From Ignavibacterium sp. (GTDB taxonomy: Bacteria > Zixibacteria > MSB-5A5 > GN15 > PGXB01), in the NCBI GenBank assembly GCA_020724775.1, contig DYGG01000028.1, forward strand, positions 1 through 42,565: 42,565 bases of DNA. The letters are read 5' to 3'. The notes below the pieces were generated by a model. It worked only from the letters and a program-made list of their open reading frames with translations. It had not been told where the DNA came from and ran no database searches. The position numbers and the translations under genes were made by a program. The first letter of the stretch is position 1; every line of letters begins with the position of its first letter. This document shows positions 1-20,114 of the stretch, one piece after another.

Positions 1-532
1 CGGACGTTTTGTTGGCGGAGATGGAGTGCGAGCCGGTCGAGAGGAAGCTCTCTTTAATTGTCACCAAAGAAGAATTGGAGGTGGTGATGGTGGCAATATT
101 GGCTTTGCTGCCATCAAGAAGTTTCTTTGTACCGAACTGGGTATTGGCGGCAATGCGGTCGATGGTCTTAATGGCATTGTCGATTTCGGCCTGGTCGGCA
201 GCCAACTGATTGGCATCATTGAAGCCTTCGTTGGCGGCGTGGATGGCCAGTTCTCTCATGGAGATCAAGAGGTTGTTCAGTTCGGTGAGGGCGCCTTCAG
301 CGGTCTGAATCATGTTGATTGACCCCTCGGAGTTGTCAATAGCACGATTCAAGCCGGCAATCTGAGCGCGGAACTGCTCGGAAATAACCAGACCGGCCGG
401 ATTGTCGGCGGCGCGGTTAATCCGGTAACCGGACGACAGTTTTTCCATAGTCTTGGAAAGGCTGGAAGTCGTCAGCACCAGGTTACGGTGAGCATTTATT
501 GCGGCAATGTTGTTGTTGATGCGGAGTGACAT
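1..532 (-). CDS. fliC: Flagellin, N-terminal part (runs off the left edge)
   Basis: Major filament subunit, exported by the flagellar type III system and polymerised outside the cell. The frame is open to the window edge, so 177 codons of the N-terminal half are visible. It begins MSLRINNNIAAINAHRN and continues with the D0/D1 signatures LSSGYRINRAADNPAGL and an AEGALTELNNLL-type heptad region, the standard flagellin N-terminus. The ATG at 530-532 is set by a strong AAGGAGGA ribosome-binding site (541-548) 8 bases upstream. The hypervariable centre and C-terminal D0 helix are missing. It has its own sigma-28-like promoter and a structured leader (separate entries). It follows the glycosyltransferase gene on the same strand. 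Identity is very secure; whether it is the only flagellin cannot be seen. Confidence 0.96.
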   Translation of the reverse strand, partial: MSLRINNNIAAINAHRNLVLTTSSLSKTMEKLSSGYRINRAADNPAGLVISEQFRAQIAGLNRAIDNSEGSINMIQTAEGALTELNNLLISMRELAIHAANEGFNDANQLAADQAEIDNAIKTIDRIAANTQFGTKKLLDGSKANIATITTSNSSLVTIKESFLSTGSHSISANKTS

Positions 533-540
533 CTGTCATT

Positions 541-575
541 TCCTCCTTGAATTGTTCAGAGGGTATCCTTACCCT
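541..575 (-). promoter_or_regulatory. Putative CsrA-binding leader of fliC (hairpin plus SD site)
   Basis: On the minus strand the leader contains a 6-bp perfect stem (AGGGTA / TACCCT, 560-575) closing the tetraloop AGGA. Twelve bases downstream lies the Shine-Dalgarno AAGGAGGA (541-548). The core GTAAGGATAC resembles the CsrA consensus, in which GGA is presented in a hairpin loop. One structured GGA site upstream and one overlapping the ribosome-binding site is the known arrangement of the Bacillus hag leader repressed by CsrA. Three more GGA triplets occur further upstream in the leader. Binding is inferred; the hairpin is directly visible. Confidence 0.6.
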
Positions 576-715
576 GCACACAATGTTCGGTCCTCAGTCG
601 GGACCACATCCGATGTCACCATTCCTATTGCAGCGAAAGTGATTTTTTTGTTATGCACCTCCCCTTGATTGCATTAAAGTTTAAGCCTGATAAAGGCACA
701 TTTTCATGATAGATT

Positions 716-742
716 TAATCGGCAGAAGTGGTCAAAACTTAA
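716..742 (-). promoter_or_regulatory. Sigma-28 (FliA) type promoter of fliC
   Basis: Reading the minus strand, TTAAGTTT is followed by GCCGATTA, with exactly 15 bases between TTAA and GCCG. The FliA consensus is TAAA-N15-GCCGATAA (extended TAAAGTTT), so the -35 has one mismatch over eight bases and the -10 one. Transcription would start near 708 and give a leader of about 175 bases that includes the GGA hairpin. The position upstream of flagellin is the classic one for sigma-28. Confidence 0.7.
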
Positions 743-790: not shown

Positions 791-3436
791 TTAAGCGGGT
801 GTGCCGACGGCGTGGATTTGCCGGAGACGCTCTCGGGCCGGCTGGAAATCAGGATTGAGTTTAAGTACCTGGTTGTAACCTATTGCGGCAGAATCGATAT
901 GTCCCAAATTGAAGTAGCATTCCGAGATACCATAGAGCCCTTCAACGGAACCAGGATTAAATTTGAGATATTTCTCATAAAGCGGGATGGCGTCACCGAA
1001 TCGACCGGCTTTGACGGCGAGGGCGGCGGTGGCTAACTGGATTTCATGGTCGTCGGGCGCTGCTTTCAGATATGTTTCAAAAAGGGAGAAGGCTTCATCC
1101 AGTTTCGCCGTTTTCATTTTGACCAGACCGAGATTGCGGTAGGCAACGGCAAGATTGGCGCCGGTGGCAAGCGCCTTCTGATAGTATTCTTCCGCCTTTT
1201 CGAGGTCGTTGAGTCGGTAATAGCAGTTGGCGATATCGTTTAGCACTTCCGGCTCGGCCGGTCCGATTTCGAGCAGCCTCTCGTAGGAATCTAAGGCGGT
1301 AGCGTAGTCCTGGGCATCAAAAGCCGCTTTGGCTTGCAGTTTCAATCCGGTCGGATAATTGGGGACAAGGGAATTTAGTTTTTTGAAAGCCGCCAGGGCG
1401 ACATCGACCCTACCGCAGTTGGCAAAGAAACAGCCGGCGCGTTCGAAGACCTCGGGATTGTCGGCACTGCTCTGCAGCGCCTGGCCATAATATTCAACCG
1501 CTTTAGTTTGGTCATTGACACCGACATAAGCCTCGCCCAGATAGACTTTAGCCAGGGCGGAATCGGGGTGCCATTGAAGTTCCTGCCGGGCGAAATCTAA
1601 CGCCACCGACAATTGATTGCTGTGAAGAGCAATACGGGCGAGGCGCAGAAAGGTGTCGAGGTAGCGACCATATTCTGATGCCACTTTGAGATAATATTTG
1701 AAGGCTTCTTCCCTATTGCCTTCCGCCTGAGCAATCAAGCCCAAGCCGTAATGAGCGATATGGCGGGCGCGCAGGTAGAGCAGAATCAGGTTCGATGTTT
1801 CCTTCGATTCATCATATTGCGCCTGCAATTCGAGATATTTCTCGAAATATTTGCGGGCATCGGCGAAACGGCGCATATGAGTATAGAGATGCCCGAGCGA
1901 CATAACGGCATCAAGGTAATCGCTTCTTATAGCCAGCGCCGAATGACAGAGTTTTTCCGCCTCTTCGTAATTCTTTAAACAGAGATGGGTGGTAATCAGT
2001 TGATGCAGCGACATAAGATGCACGTGAACATACTTTTCGACACCGACGGTCATGGCGACCGCCAGTGAGGCATGTTTGATAATCAGGTCGCATGTTTCCT
2101 TATCGAGGTTTATGCCGGTCCCGCGCAAGAGTTGGGCATAATTGAAATGGGGATAGGGGTCATCGGGGTTGGCGGCAATCTGCTGCTCGAGAAGGGAGCG
2201 CGACCGGGCGAGTTTCTGTTTCATTCTTTCGGGGGACAGACTATAGCCATAATGCTTGAGCCGGACACCAACGCGGAGAGCCGCTTCATCAGGAGCATAT
2301 TTCAACTGGTTATGGACGATGCCATCATAATAAAAGCCGGCGTCACGGCGATAAAGTCGGTATGAGGGGAGAAATGAGGTCACATCGCCGGTCTCCCGGT
2401 TGACGTTATAGACATTGATAGAGACCAAGCGGAACTGGTTTTGCGCCATAACCTGGCGAATGAGGGGAATATCTTCGGCGACAAATTCTTCGTCGGCGTC
2501 GATTATAAAAATCCACTCTTTGGTTGCTTGAGCCAGAGAAAAATTGCGGGCTTTGGAGAAATCACCCTCCCATGCCTGATGAAATACTTTTGCCCCGTAA
2601 GACTGAGCGATTTCGACGGTGCGGTCGGTGGAGCCGGTATCGACCACGATGATCTCATCGACCCAACTGCGGATTGATTCCAGGCAATTAGGGAGAAATT
2701 CCTCCTCGTTTTTGACAATCATGCAGGCCGAGACGGTAGCGCGATTTTCCAGAGATTTCTTAAGAAGTCGCAACTCCTGTACCTGGGAGCATTTCTGCAG
2801 TCCGGCTTTTATGACACTGTCGGCCTCGGTAAACTTGCGCGCTCGAATGTAGAGATTTGCCAGGTTGACATAGGGATGGTGGTAAGAAGGAGCAAGTTCC
2901 ATCGCCTTACGAAAGGCGGATTCGGCTTCCACTAAGTCATCCAGAGCCTGCAGGGCGGTTCCGAGGTAGTTATGAATAAGATACTCATCGGGGGCGCTCC
3001 AGGTTGATTGTTGTCCGCGGCGGGGGAGTTCCAGATAGGCGTGGGCATGGCGAACGCATTTTCCGTAATCGCGGAGGGTCACATAAATATAAGCCAGGAC
3101 AAAGTGAAAATCGGGATGGTCGGGAGCCAATTGGAGACCCCGGAGCGCATTTTGTTCTGATTCGACAAAGCGCCCACGGTGAGCAAGAAGATATGAACCG
3201 AGACGACAGTATTCTACCTGCCATTCTCCCGGTTCCGCATTGCCGTCCATTTCGCTCCAGATATTATAGGCGGCGTCAAATTCCTTTTCATGATAGAGAC
3301 TGACCGCGTCCATGAGACGGGAGGTGATATCGGACGTCGAATCACTCTTGGCACTAACGGTTTTTCGGCCGGAGGAACGACGGGCATTCTTCCCAGCCGG
3401 GGGCCGCGAACGGTTCTTTTTCTTTGCGGCGGTCAT
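791..3436 (-). CDS. TPR - family 2 glycosyltransferase - TPR protein
   Basis: An 881-aa protein with three parts. A basic, disordered start is followed by TPR-like helices to about residue 230. A GT-A family 2 glycosyltransferase begins at ACMIVKNEE (about 237), has VVDTGSTD (264-271) and the metal/nucleotide-sugar motif DADEE (313-317). From about residue 430 to the end there are many further TPR units. No signal peptide or membrane segment is seen, so it is probably cytoplasmic. Its ATG lies one base after the fliW stop, so the two are likely translationally coupled, and fliC follows downstream. Context suggests it glycosylates flagellin or another filament protein, as TPR-fused GT2 enzymes do in some systems. 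Substrate and sugar are unknown. Fold assignment is secure; role is inference. Confidence 0.85.
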   Translation of the reverse strand: MTAAKKKNRSRPPAGKNARRSSGRKTVSAKSDSTSDITSRLMDAVSLYHEKEFDAAYNIWSEMDGNAEPGEWQVEYCRLGSYLLAHRGRFVESEQNALRGLQLAPDHPDFHFVLAYIYVTLRDYGKCVRHAHAYLELPRRGQQSTWSAPDEYLIHNYLGTALQALDDLVEAESAFRKAMELAPSYHHPYVNLANLYIRARKFTEADSVIKAGLQKCSQVQELRLLKKSLENRATVSACMIVKNEEEFLPNCLESIRSWVDEIIVVDTGSTDRTVEIAQSYGAKVFHQAWEGDFSKARNFSLAQATKEWIFIIDADEEFVAEDIPLIRQVMAQNQFRLVSINVYNVNRETGDVTSFLPSYRLYRRDAGFYYDGIVHNQLKYAPDEAALRVGVRLKHYGYSLSPERMKQKLARSRSLLEQQIAANPDDPYPHFNYAQLLRGTGINLDKETCDLIIKHASLAVAMTVGVEKYVHVHLMSLHQLITTHLCLKNYEEAEKLCHSALAIRSDYLDAVMSLGHLYTHMRRFADARKYFEKYLELQAQYDESKETSNLILLYLRARHIAHYGLGLIAQAEGNREEAFKYYLKVASEYGRYLDTFLRLARIALHSNQLSVALDFARQELQWHPDSALAKVYLGEAYVGVNDQTKAVEYYGQALQSSADNPEVFERAGCFFANCGRVDVALAAFKKLNSLVPNYPTGLKLQAKAAFDAQDYATALDSYERLLEIGPAEPEVLNDIANCYYRLNDLEKAEEYYQKALATGANLAVAYRNLGLVKMKTAKLDEAFSLFETYLKAAPDDHEIQLATAALAVKAGRFGDAIPLYEKYLKFNPGSVEGLYGISECYFNLGHIDSAAIGYNQVLKLNPDFQPARERLRQIHAVGTPA

Positions 3437-3437
3437 C

Positions 3438-3923
3438 TTAAACGGTTACCGGCGTTTCCTGCTCCAGTCTCGTTTCTGATTCGATTTCATCGCGCTCGGT
3501 CTGACCGAGGATAAAATGCTTGACGCGATAATCGGAATTGACCAGAATCATCTGCTTAGCCAGGCGAGTTTCGGTGTTGATAAGAATCGGACCCTGAAGA
3601 TTGGCGGTCATGTTTCTCGGGTCAGTCGGAATGGTGACGATGACATAAGTCTCGACGGCGCGGACGTCGGAAACCTTGAGTTCCTCAATCTCCTTGGGAT
3701 TAACTTCGATCCGATAATCGGGATAGAAGAAAAGGGGATTGACGACGATGAAGGCGACCGAGGGGTCCTCGACGGACTGATACCAGAGGAACGGTTCGCT
3801 GTCTTCCCGCTCGATAATGCAATAGCGGGTTAGTTGTTCGAAACCGAGAATCGGTTTCGGCATGCTGATGATTTTATCCTCGGGGATTTCGAGAGTTCCG
3901 AACCTGAGTGATGTGATTTTCAT
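3438..3923 (-). CDS. fliW: Flagellar assembly factor FliW
   Basis: 161 aa, the usual FliW length. Typical family features are visible: RFGTLEIPEDKIISMPKPILGFE at the start (a LGFE turn near residue 28), PFLWYQSVEDPSVAFIVVNP in the middle, and TANLQGPILIN near residue 110. FliW binds free flagellin and also CsrA. When flagellin is exported, FliW is released to antagonise CsrA and so allows flagellin translation. The gene lies between flgL and the glycosyltransferase gene, with csrA two genes upstream, so the whole FliW-CsrA-flagellin switch is local. The tail after about residue 135 is acidic. Very confident. Confidence 0.96.
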   Translation of the reverse strand: MKITSLRFGTLEIPEDKIISMPKPILGFEQLTRYCIIEREDSEPFLWYQSVEDPSVAFIVVNPLFFYPDYRIEVNPKEIEELKVSDVRAVETYVIVTIPTDPRNMTANLQGPILINTETRLAKQMILVNSDYRVKHFILGQTERDEIESETRLEQETPVTV

Positions 3924-5922: not shown

Positions 5923-6246
5923 TTATTCTCCTTTTTTCTCATCCAGAGGCGGTTTAGGATGCGATTTCTTGTACTTGATATCCGGAGTTTTCTTCTTTTT
6001 GCGGGAGTCGCCGGATATCTTATCTTTCAGCAGTTTCACCACCGTAGCCAAATCCTGTTTGACAGATTTTGCCGCCTTGCGGTTTTCCTGCTGGATTTTC
6101 ACGTATATTTCTTCGCGGTGGACGACCACTCGCGGAGGCGCATCGATTCCGATTCGCACCTGGCGGCCAAAGACCCCCAGGACTGTAACCTTAATATCAT
6201 CTCCAATGGTTATGGACTCCCCTAACTTCCTTGTCAGAATTAACAA
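5923..6246 (-). CDS. csrA: Carbon storage regulator CsrA with long lysine-rich tail
   Basis: RNA-binding translational regulator that recognises GGA in hairpin loops. The first ~60 residues are canonical: [24 protein letters not shown], then [18 protein letters not shown] (Arg near 44 is the usual RNA-contact residue). The start codon is TTG (6244-6246), shown by the invariant LILTRK that follows and by GGAGGG at 6251-6256, four bases upstream. The protein is 107 aa against the usual 60-80, with a tail rich in Lys and Pro. In Firmicutes a C-terminal CsrA extension is the FliW contact, so the tail may serve that here. It sits between flgK and flgL. Very confident. Confidence 0.96.
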
Positions 6247-6289
6247 AATACCCTCCGTGGTCAGTTAGTGTTCAGGACATCATCCTCAA

Positions 6290-18499: not shown

Positions 18500-20071
18500 T
18501 TATTCTATCATCATGGTCTTAATGACTTTGGCAATCTCTTCGGGACGTCCCTTGGCGGCGGCCTGCATCTGGTCAATCAAGCGTGGACGCCGGTTCTCCG
18601 GAACGATTGGCGGCACCGCGTTCTGCTCCTCGCCAGGCATGCCTTCATAGGAGCCGATACCCTGCCCCGAGCGAGTCGGCAAAGCCGGAGGAAGGATTCT
18701 TCCCAGGGAGCCAAAAAATTTCTTAAGCATCTTGCGCAAATAGAGGAATGCCAGAACAGCAAGAATGACTAACAAGACTTTCTTGCCGATATCGTAATAA
18801 AATTCCTGCTGAATCACCTGGTCGATTTTCTGCTGCTCGAATTCCATAGAGGTGCGGTCAAACGCCAGATTGACTACTTCTATCTGGTCGTTGCGCTGGT
18901 TATCGAATCCTACGGCGTTTCTCACCAGGGCGGCAATCCGGTTGATTTCTTCCTGGCTGCGCGGCTCATAAGCCGGCTCGGCCGCGCCGCCGCCGGCGGC
19001 ATCGGCTCTGCGATAGATGCCGTCAACCAAAACCGCCACGGATAGACGTTTGATATTGCCGACAGAATTTATGATATGTTCTACCGTCTTGTTGATTTCA
19101 TAATTGGTAACGGCGGTTTCCACCTTGTTATCGTCACGGGTTTCGCTGCTATCCTCTCCCTTATCCGAAGATGTTTTCGTTTCTTCGGTTTTTTCCTCGC
19201 TGCGGACAACGGCGGAATTGGGGTCGTATATTTCCGAGGTTTTTTCCATCTGCTGGAAATCAAGTTCGGCGGTAACGCGGACAATTGATTTTCCCTGCCC
19301 AATGACGCCATCGAGCATGCTCTGGGCTTTCTTTTCCAGGTATTGCTCCACATTTTTGCGGACATCAAGTTGTGAGGCGCTCATTCCTGCCAGCGGGTCG
19401 GAGCCGGTCTGCGAGGACAGAAGTTCTCCGTTATAATCAATGATAGAGATATTTTGCGGCTTTAGACCTTCCACAGAACAGGCGACAAGATGGGTGATGC
19501 CGGCAAGTTGCGATTTGGAGAGCCCGCCGGGGGTGCGGAGTTTCAACACTATTGATGCCGTCGCTTCCTGCTTGTCGGCTTTAAAGAGGCGGTCTTTGGG
19601 CATGACAATATGCACCCGCGCCGCCTGCACATCGGCAAGTTGCATAATGGTGCGGGTCAGTTCTCCTTCGAGCGCTCTCCGGAAGTTGAGATTCTGCAGG
19701 AATTCGGTCATACCGAGATTGGATTTGTCAAATATGGAATAGCCGATATTCCCGGAGCGGGGAATTCCCTCTGATGCCAGAGTGATGCGGGTTTTGTAGA
19801 CGTCGCCGGAAGGGACCAGAATGGTGGTGCCGCCGTCTTCTAATTTGTAAGGGACTTTCTGCTCGGTAAGTTGGCTGACAATTTCGCCGGCTTCGGCCGG
19901 TTCCAGATTCGAATAGAGTATGGAGTAATTGACGGTTTTGACCCAGTTGCCGACGACGGCAATACCGACAATGAGACCGGCGATGACCGCCACGAGAACG
20001 ACCGCCTGCCCGGGCGACATCGCCTTCAGGACGGCGGAGATATTGCGGAAGAGTTGTTTAAAGTAATCCAT
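18500..20071 (-). CDS. fliF: MS-ring protein FliF
   Basis: 523 aa with two membrane spans (about 22-42 and about 435-455) around a large periplasmic part. The periplasmic ring-building motif region SNLEPAEAGEIVSQLTEQKVPYKLEDGGTTILVP is clear near residue 54, and PGGLSKSQLAGITHLVACSVEGLKPQNISIID is another FliF signature. The C-terminal tail (EEIAKVIKTMMIE) binds FliG. It houses the export gate and is the first structure built. The 60-base leader holds a GGA-loop hairpin (separate entry). Confidence 0.97.
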   Translation of the reverse strand: MDYFKQLFRNISAVLKAMSPGQAVVLVAVIAGLIVGIAVVGNWVKTVNYSILYSNLEPAEAGEIVSQLTEQKVPYKLEDGGTTILVPSGDVYKTRITLASEGIPRSGNIGYSIFDKSNLGMTEFLQNLNFRRALEGELTRTIMQLADVQAARVHIVMPKDRLFKADKQEATASIVLKLRTPGGLSKSQLAGITHLVACSVEGLKPQNISIIDYNGELLSSQTGSDPLAGMSASQLDVRKNVEQYLEKKAQSMLDGVIGQGKSIVRVTAELDFQQMEKTSEIYDPNSAVVRSEEKTEETKTSSDKGEDSSETRDDNKVETAVTNYEINKTVEHIINSVGNIKRLSVAVLVDGIYRRADAAGGGAAEPAYEPRSQEEINRIAALVRNAVGFDNQRNDQIEVVNLAFDRTSMEFEQQKIDQVIQQEFYYDIGKKVLLVILAVLAFLYLRKMLKKFFGSLGRILPPALPTRSGQGIGSYEGMPGEEQNAVPPIVPENRRPRLIDQMQAAAKGRPEEIAKVIKTMMIE

Positions 20072-20090
20072 GCCAATTCCTATTTATCGA

Positions 20091-20114
20091 CTGACACCAA
20101 TCCTATGGTATCAG
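20091..20114 (-). promoter_or_regulatory. GGA-loop hairpin in the fliF leader (candidate CsrA site)
   Basis: Minus-strand CTGATACC and GGTGTCAG can form an 8-bp stem with one U-G pair, closing the 8-base loop ATAGGATT, which exposes GGA. A second GGA lies in the ribosome-binding site (20078-20081), 19 bases from the hairpin to the ATG. There is no T tract, so it is not a terminator. It repeats the architecture seen in the fliC leader. Function is inferred. Confidence 0.4.

Follow-up and report, generated by a model that had tools for sequence, protein, structure and literature searches.

The window, by which we mean the whole 42,565-nucleotide stretch of DNA analysed, carries at one end a flagellin gene with GGA triplets both in a hairpin loop and in the ribosome-binding site of its leader, and genes for FliW and CsrA lie nearby. 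The question raised by this locus is whether CsrA targets the leader in the manner for which flaA of Campylobacter jejuni (PMC4894983) and hag of Bacillus subtilis (PMC8523840, PMC7652899) are the experimental precedents. The nearest relatives of the window belong to Candidatus Zixiibacteriota, and 80 fliC relatives were found. The genome is diderm, as had been proposed from the sequence alone, since genes for the P-ring protein FlgI and the L-ring protein FlgH are present.

The flagellin leader and its putative regulators

The features of the fliC leader and of the two regulatory genes are as follows.

1..532, minus strand: fliC, N-terminal part of flagellin, cut by the contig end (Pfam Flagellin_N, E 1e-36)
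541..549, minus strand: ribosome-binding site CAAGGAGGA, predicted second core CsrA-type site, kept in relatives
560..575, minus strand: hairpin AGGGTA-AGGA-TACCCT, 6 bp stem, GGA in the loop
589..605, minus strand: small spacer hairpin GGTCC-CGACTGA-GGACC, loop without GGA
606..616, minus strand: SELEX-like element ACATCGGATGT, close to the CsrA SELEX consensus RUACARGGAUGU
621..628, minus strand: further GGA site ATAGGAAT, with ATAGGA invariant in the 8 closest leaders
656..666, minus strand: 5'-proximal AAGGGGAGGTG element (GGAGG); GGAGG recurs in relatives, role uncertain
716..742, minus strand: sigma-28-like promoter TTAAG-N14-GCCGATTA, 10/12 consensus positions, the start site itself being a prediction
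3438..3923, minus strand: fliW, predicted CsrA antagonist (Pfam FliW, E 6e-41; PDB 5DMB chain A, E 7e-26)
5923..6246, minus strand: csrA, 107 aa with a C-terminal extension, R44, I51 and N55 in the translation

The start codon of fliC is the ATG at 532-530 on the minus strand, and the gene runs off the window. The sequence-only reading had described the AGGA-loop hairpin, a GGA in the ribosome-binding site and a sigma-28-like start; the hairpin is exact on the minus strand, the GGA lies within CAAGGAGGA, and the promoter occupies the same place in most of the 70 Zixibacteria fliC leaders compared below. Three further upstream GGA triplets had been claimed, but four were counted, at -61, -79, -93 and -130 from the ATG, the one at -61 sitting within a small predicted stem. 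The proposed two-site, hag-like layout holds for the two core sites but understates the leader, in which three or more GGA sites are conserved and a GGAGG is present towards the 5' end. Where the window has the spacer hairpin, close relatives have small stems of different sequence. Inspection by eye revealed no upstream ORF at the 5' GGAGG of the window leader, and the leader has no family in Rfam.

The proximity of csrA and fliW to fliC, a few kb, is as originally stated. No second csrA was found in the genome (3.07 Mb), and the CsrA of the window aligns beyond the core with PDB 5DMB chain D, the C-terminally extended Geobacillus CsrA in complex with FliW. In C. jejuni, V51 and N55 of CsrA were shown to bind FliW, and isoleucine is common at position 51 (PMC7829508). 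What a homeostasis switch requires of CsrA is present in the window, namely the RNA-binding core with R44 and a C-terminal extension with I51 and N55, and so is a flagellin leader with one GGA in a hairpin loop and another in the ribosome-binding site. Among 97 Zixibacteria genomes, FliW was found in 88 and CsrA in 94.

Two minor observations concern the neighbouring genes. The csrA ribosome-binding site CCACGGAGGGT (window 6247-6260) is present in nearly all relatives inspected, and csrA may control itself. Between fliW and fliC (791-3436) lies a gene for a glycosyltransferase family 2 protein with many TPR repeats, which possibly acts on flagellin.

Conservation of the fliC hairpin and of further GGA sites

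Taken by itself, the hairpin of the window stands out only moderately (dinucleotide shuffles give p = 0.013), and the leader as a whole has ordinary stability (z = -0.13), so that a comparison across relatives was needed. The conservation set consisted of 70 Zixibacteria fliC leaders, window included; the genomes are related, nearly all relatives are metagenome assemblies, many of them incomplete, and start codons were called by script. A GGA-loop hairpin with p < 0.05 against dinucleotide shuffles, which leave the kinship among leaders in place, was found at the same place in 44 of the 70, counts that do not represent independent events. At a fixed threshold (weight 9 or 12, chosen after the first fliC leaders had been seen), 55/70 fliC leaders had such a hairpin against 18/163 non-flagellin gene starts from the same loci (Fisher p about 6e-24, for related genomes and not for 70 independent cases).

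Conservation of the stem and of the loop GGA in relatives, the check on which the original proposal was to stand or fall, was run on these leaders, and the proposal withstood it. Over the 70 sequences, all five stem pairs covary, with changes on both sides, and 79.1% of the stem cells are paired as compared with 63.9 ± 1.4% in shuffles. Pairing and covariation score exceeded those of all 500 shuffles and of the slid controls; sliding the partner by one column lowered pairing to 48 or 53%. A cleaner subset of 38 leaders gave 84.2% against 73.7%. The stems themselves differ strongly between groups (GGGTA/TACCC, GCGAGC/GTTTCGC, GTCGGGC/GCCTGAC, CAAACA/TGTTTG). RNAalifold predicted no structure on the plain alignment because the loops differ in length; pairs were therefore counted for a structure specified beforehand.

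In the loop, the GGA is kept. The canonical CsrA hexaloop ANGGAN, with three or more closing pairs, is present in 37/70 leaders (shuffled mean 0.55, maximum 3), and GGA is the commonest of all 64 triplets in the loops of such hairpins. The distance from hairpin to start codon is nearly fixed, and CAAGGAGGA is kept at the ribosome-binding site in 69/70. A good GGA-loop hairpin is missing in about 15 of the 70 leaders; in L008, L016, L018 and L021 the stem is kept and the loop reads AGGGTA or AAGGTA, without GGA. The recurrence of the hairpin is decisive through this comparison, not through the window leader alone. It might be objected that a purine-rich leader could form such a hairpin by chance, for which the modest p value and ordinary fold stability in the window speak; covariation and recurrence across genomes contradict this explanation, which we hold to be scarcely credible.

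The leaders contain more GGA sites than the two core ones. GGA is the most over-represented triplet in them (397 against 245 expected), and its permutation GAG is under-represented. A SELEX-like element, ACAUNGGANGU, matches at least 4/6 flank bases in 49/70 leaders (shuffled mean 3.9, maximum 12), the CsrA SELEX consensus being RUACARGGAUGU (PMC7652899). The element, ACATNGGANGT, is most often found between -73 and -93 and precedes the hairpin by about 40 nt. Farther upstream, at -180..-95, a 5'-proximal GGAGG is present in 47/70 leaders (shuffled mean 8.2, maximum 16). ATAGGA, GACAT-N-GGA and TTCAAGGAGGAA do not vary among the eight closest leaders. Three leaders (L044, L054 and L059) keep the hairpin and have lost one G from the GGA of the SELEX-like element, which is CACATTGACGTG or CACATTGAAGTG there.

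These GGA sites could also be read as a ribosome standby or strong-initiation element of a highly expressed gene, in which the loop GGA mimics a Shine-Dalgarno sequence and CsrA plays no part. The fliC ribosome-binding site is indeed a near-perfect Shine-Dalgarno sequence, whose GGA is an ordinary part of it, and AAGGAGGTG, the element towards the 5' end, is complementary to the 16S tail. What makes this reading unlikely is that the loops, varying as AGGA, CGGA, TGGA and GGGA, keep GGA rather than AGGAGG, that both the ANGGAN hexaloop and the ACAUNGGANGU element are characteristic of CsrA sites, and that csrA and fliW lie in the same block as fliC. A short, stable hairpin close to the start of a gene can shield its mRNA, and this general property is the argument for regarding the hairpin as an attenuator, a terminator remnant or a 5' RNA-stability element. 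Neither a GGA loop nor a nearly fixed distance to the start is needed for an attenuator or stability role, and we consider this explanation very improbable. A terminator reading of the fliC hairpin and of the fliF hairpin described below was ruled out, as no U-run follows either. Judged on sequence features, the window fliC leader very probably belongs to the CsrA targets of the hag/flaA kind, and the brake on flagellum assembly that Bacillus and Campylobacter possess very probably operates in this distant phylum too.

The specificity of the element was examined with a covariance model (R1) comprising the hairpin and the ribosome-binding site, which was searched over 97 whole Zixibacteria genomes. 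All hits above 27 bits were at flagellin starts (compared by eye), one match (G002) being near the end of a contig that also carries fliW and csrA; some genomes with hits also supplied the model, and the search shows specificity more than sensitivity. The window leader, itself in the model, scored 48.6 bits and the next best match in the window 11.8. A flagellin paralogue on another contig of the same genome (G000:C50) is without a fliC-type leader. This short paralogue (L112 and L113; G000:C50 and G055:C169) has a sigma-54-like promoter, and its ribosome-binding site, CAGGGAGG, is looped out by a TTTTGC/GCAAAA stem, for which no common pattern was seen among the relatives read.

The hairpin recurs with unrelated stems in Planctomycetota, where 17/39 leaders have it with p < 0.05 and 17/39 have an ANGGAN hexaloop (shuffled mean 0.34). 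A hairpin with p < 0.05 was present in 15/33 genomes with FliW (the L073 leader replacing one whose start had been mis-called) as against 0/5 genomes with CsrA and without FliW, a difference with a one-sided Fisher p = 0.067 in which the five genomes without FliW may be close relatives; a link of the leader sites to the presence of FliW is at most suggested. Planctomycetes, like many other phyla, had already been listed as having FliW (PMC4682653). Six Planctomycetota genomes (G187, G202, G132, G231, G255 and G217) combine flagellin with 4 to 9 CsrA copies, and a FliW match is absent in 5/6 of them.

A second conserved element at fliF

An element that the sequence-only reading had not seen surfaced upstream of fliF when other genes were used as controls. 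Its features in the window are given here.

18500..20071, minus strand: fliF, MS-ring protein (Pfam YscJ_FliF, E 1.5e-66)
20078..20083, minus strand: fliF ribosome-binding site ATAGGA; A, T, G, G, A of ATAGGA invariant in 30 leaders
20091..20114, minus strand: hairpin CTGATACCA-TAGGAT-TGGTGTCAG between fliE and fliF, with covariation among relatives

A GGA-loop hairpin at weight >=9 was present in 28/30 Zixibacteria fliF leaders, window included. The two fliF leaders of family f3 are without it, and the element looks specific to families f1 and f2. In 18 leaders that could be placed in one register, changes on both sides were seen for 6/7 pairs. Pairing there amounts to 86.5% of the stem cells, compared with 73.4 ± 2.3% for shuffled sequences and no more than 44% for slid partners. 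Among the eight leaders of the group to which the window belongs, the same covariation is present in weaker form. In a scan of fliF and 42 other genes of the cluster in up to 21 relatives, fliF alone stood out, with 16/20 leaders at weight 9 and 14/20 at weight 12. The other genes with at least 10 leaders were low, the highest at weight 9 being flgL (9/22), which fell to 2/22 at weight 12. The ANGGAN hexaloop occurs in 19/30 fliF leaders as compared with 20/540 other leaders of the cluster. The fliF loops are mostly ATGGAT, which is not Shine-Dalgarno-like and is a further argument against a standby element that mimics the ribosome-binding site. The element type is thus found beyond fliC: fliF carries a second conserved one.

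A second model (R2), built from 18 fliF leaders of family f2, was searched over 97 genomes and gave at most one match per genome, 27 in all, every one in f2. Nine of these hits were in genomes outside the model, eight at fliF starts and one at a fliP start. Seven of the eight new fliF hits have an uninterrupted GGA-loop stem of at least 6 pairs; in L348 the stem is interrupted. In the window, which is not in the model, the best match is the fliF leader, at 18.4 bits with a weak E of 0.063, followed by a match of 10.7 bits. The hit at the FliP-like start (named by eye; L352, G023:C108:560-871) consists of the hairpin GACAACATGGATGTTGTC followed by an AATAGGA ribosome-binding site. It is a single fliP leader, found by the fliF model, and fliP is a possible third target. 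No clear element was seen in Planctomycetota fliF leaders, of which 8/26 had a hairpin at weight 9 and 2/26 at weight 12, with uncertain start calls.

CsrA pull-downs in C. jejuni enrich fliF mRNA about 6 to 8 fold (PMC4894983); this enrichment is listed under the ORF and not under a leader hairpin. In the Zixibacteria lineage of the window, CsrA probably acts on fliF as well. That the FliW-CsrA switch of Zixibacteria gates both ends of assembly, the fliF ring and the fliC filament, is a view towards which we lean slightly. If it is correct, unexported flagellin would stop its own synthesis as well as the start of new basal bodies, and the switch, provided that the fliF element is bound by CsrA, would control the number of flagella and not the filament protein only.

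Known flagellin switches and the proposed mechanism

The window shares with B. subtilis FliW, a C-terminally extended CsrA with N55 and a flagellin gene (PMC7829508), and the hag leader likewise combines an upstream core site with a second that lies on the ribosome-binding site (PMC8523840, PMC7652899). In contrast to hag, the window leader is longer and has at least three conserved GGA sites in addition to the 5' GGAGG, and it comes from a diderm phylum with a second conserved element at fliF. The flaA leader of C. jejuni also combines a GGA-loop stem upstream with a GGA at the ribosome-binding site, and its stems are supported by compensatory changes (PMC4894983). Unlike that of the window, it is 45 nt long and has the ribosome-binding site in a second stem-loop. 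In Clostridioides difficile fliC, the predicted BS1, TGACAAGGATGT, is nearly identical to TGACATCGGATGT of the window, and BS2 is CTAAGGAGGG (PMC8523840); the window has an extra GGA-loop hairpin between the two sites found in the C. difficile leader.

By analogy with the work on B. subtilis and C. jejuni, from which we infer binding, repression and partner switching between FliW and flagellin, the following mechanism can be envisaged. The sigma-28 promoter would make a fliC leader of roughly 180 nt, in which CsrA dimers would bind the GGA in the ACAUCGGAUGU element and the AGGA hairpin loop. CsrA bound upstream would be brought to the GGA of the fliC ribosome-binding site and block ribosomes there. 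Binding of FliW to CsrA through the I51/N55 helix would lift the block; unexported flagellin, by binding FliW, would shut off flagellin translation until export is possible. The same CsrA acting on fliF would make the building of new basal bodies depend on this signal too.

Systems of this kind are already known; what is new is the multi-site leader in Zixibacteria, the fact that it recurs in Planctomycetota, and the element at fliF. No paper on both Zixibacteria and CsrA was found in the open-access literature. These results suggest that CsrA has long and widely served, together with FliW, to control flagellin, with one RNA layout and unrelated stems in Zixibacteria and Planctomycetota.

Nine Zixibacteria genomes (L114-L122, i.e. 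G005, G006, G007, G071, G072, G074, G075, G076 and G092) keep fliW and csrA, and no Flagellin_N gene was found in them. A FliF search in six of these genomes gave a match in G071 and none in G005, G006, G007, G076 and G092. These nine genomes suggest a role for FliW-CsrA without flagella. In G071 and G072, flgM-like and flgN-like genes are located beside fliW and csrA.
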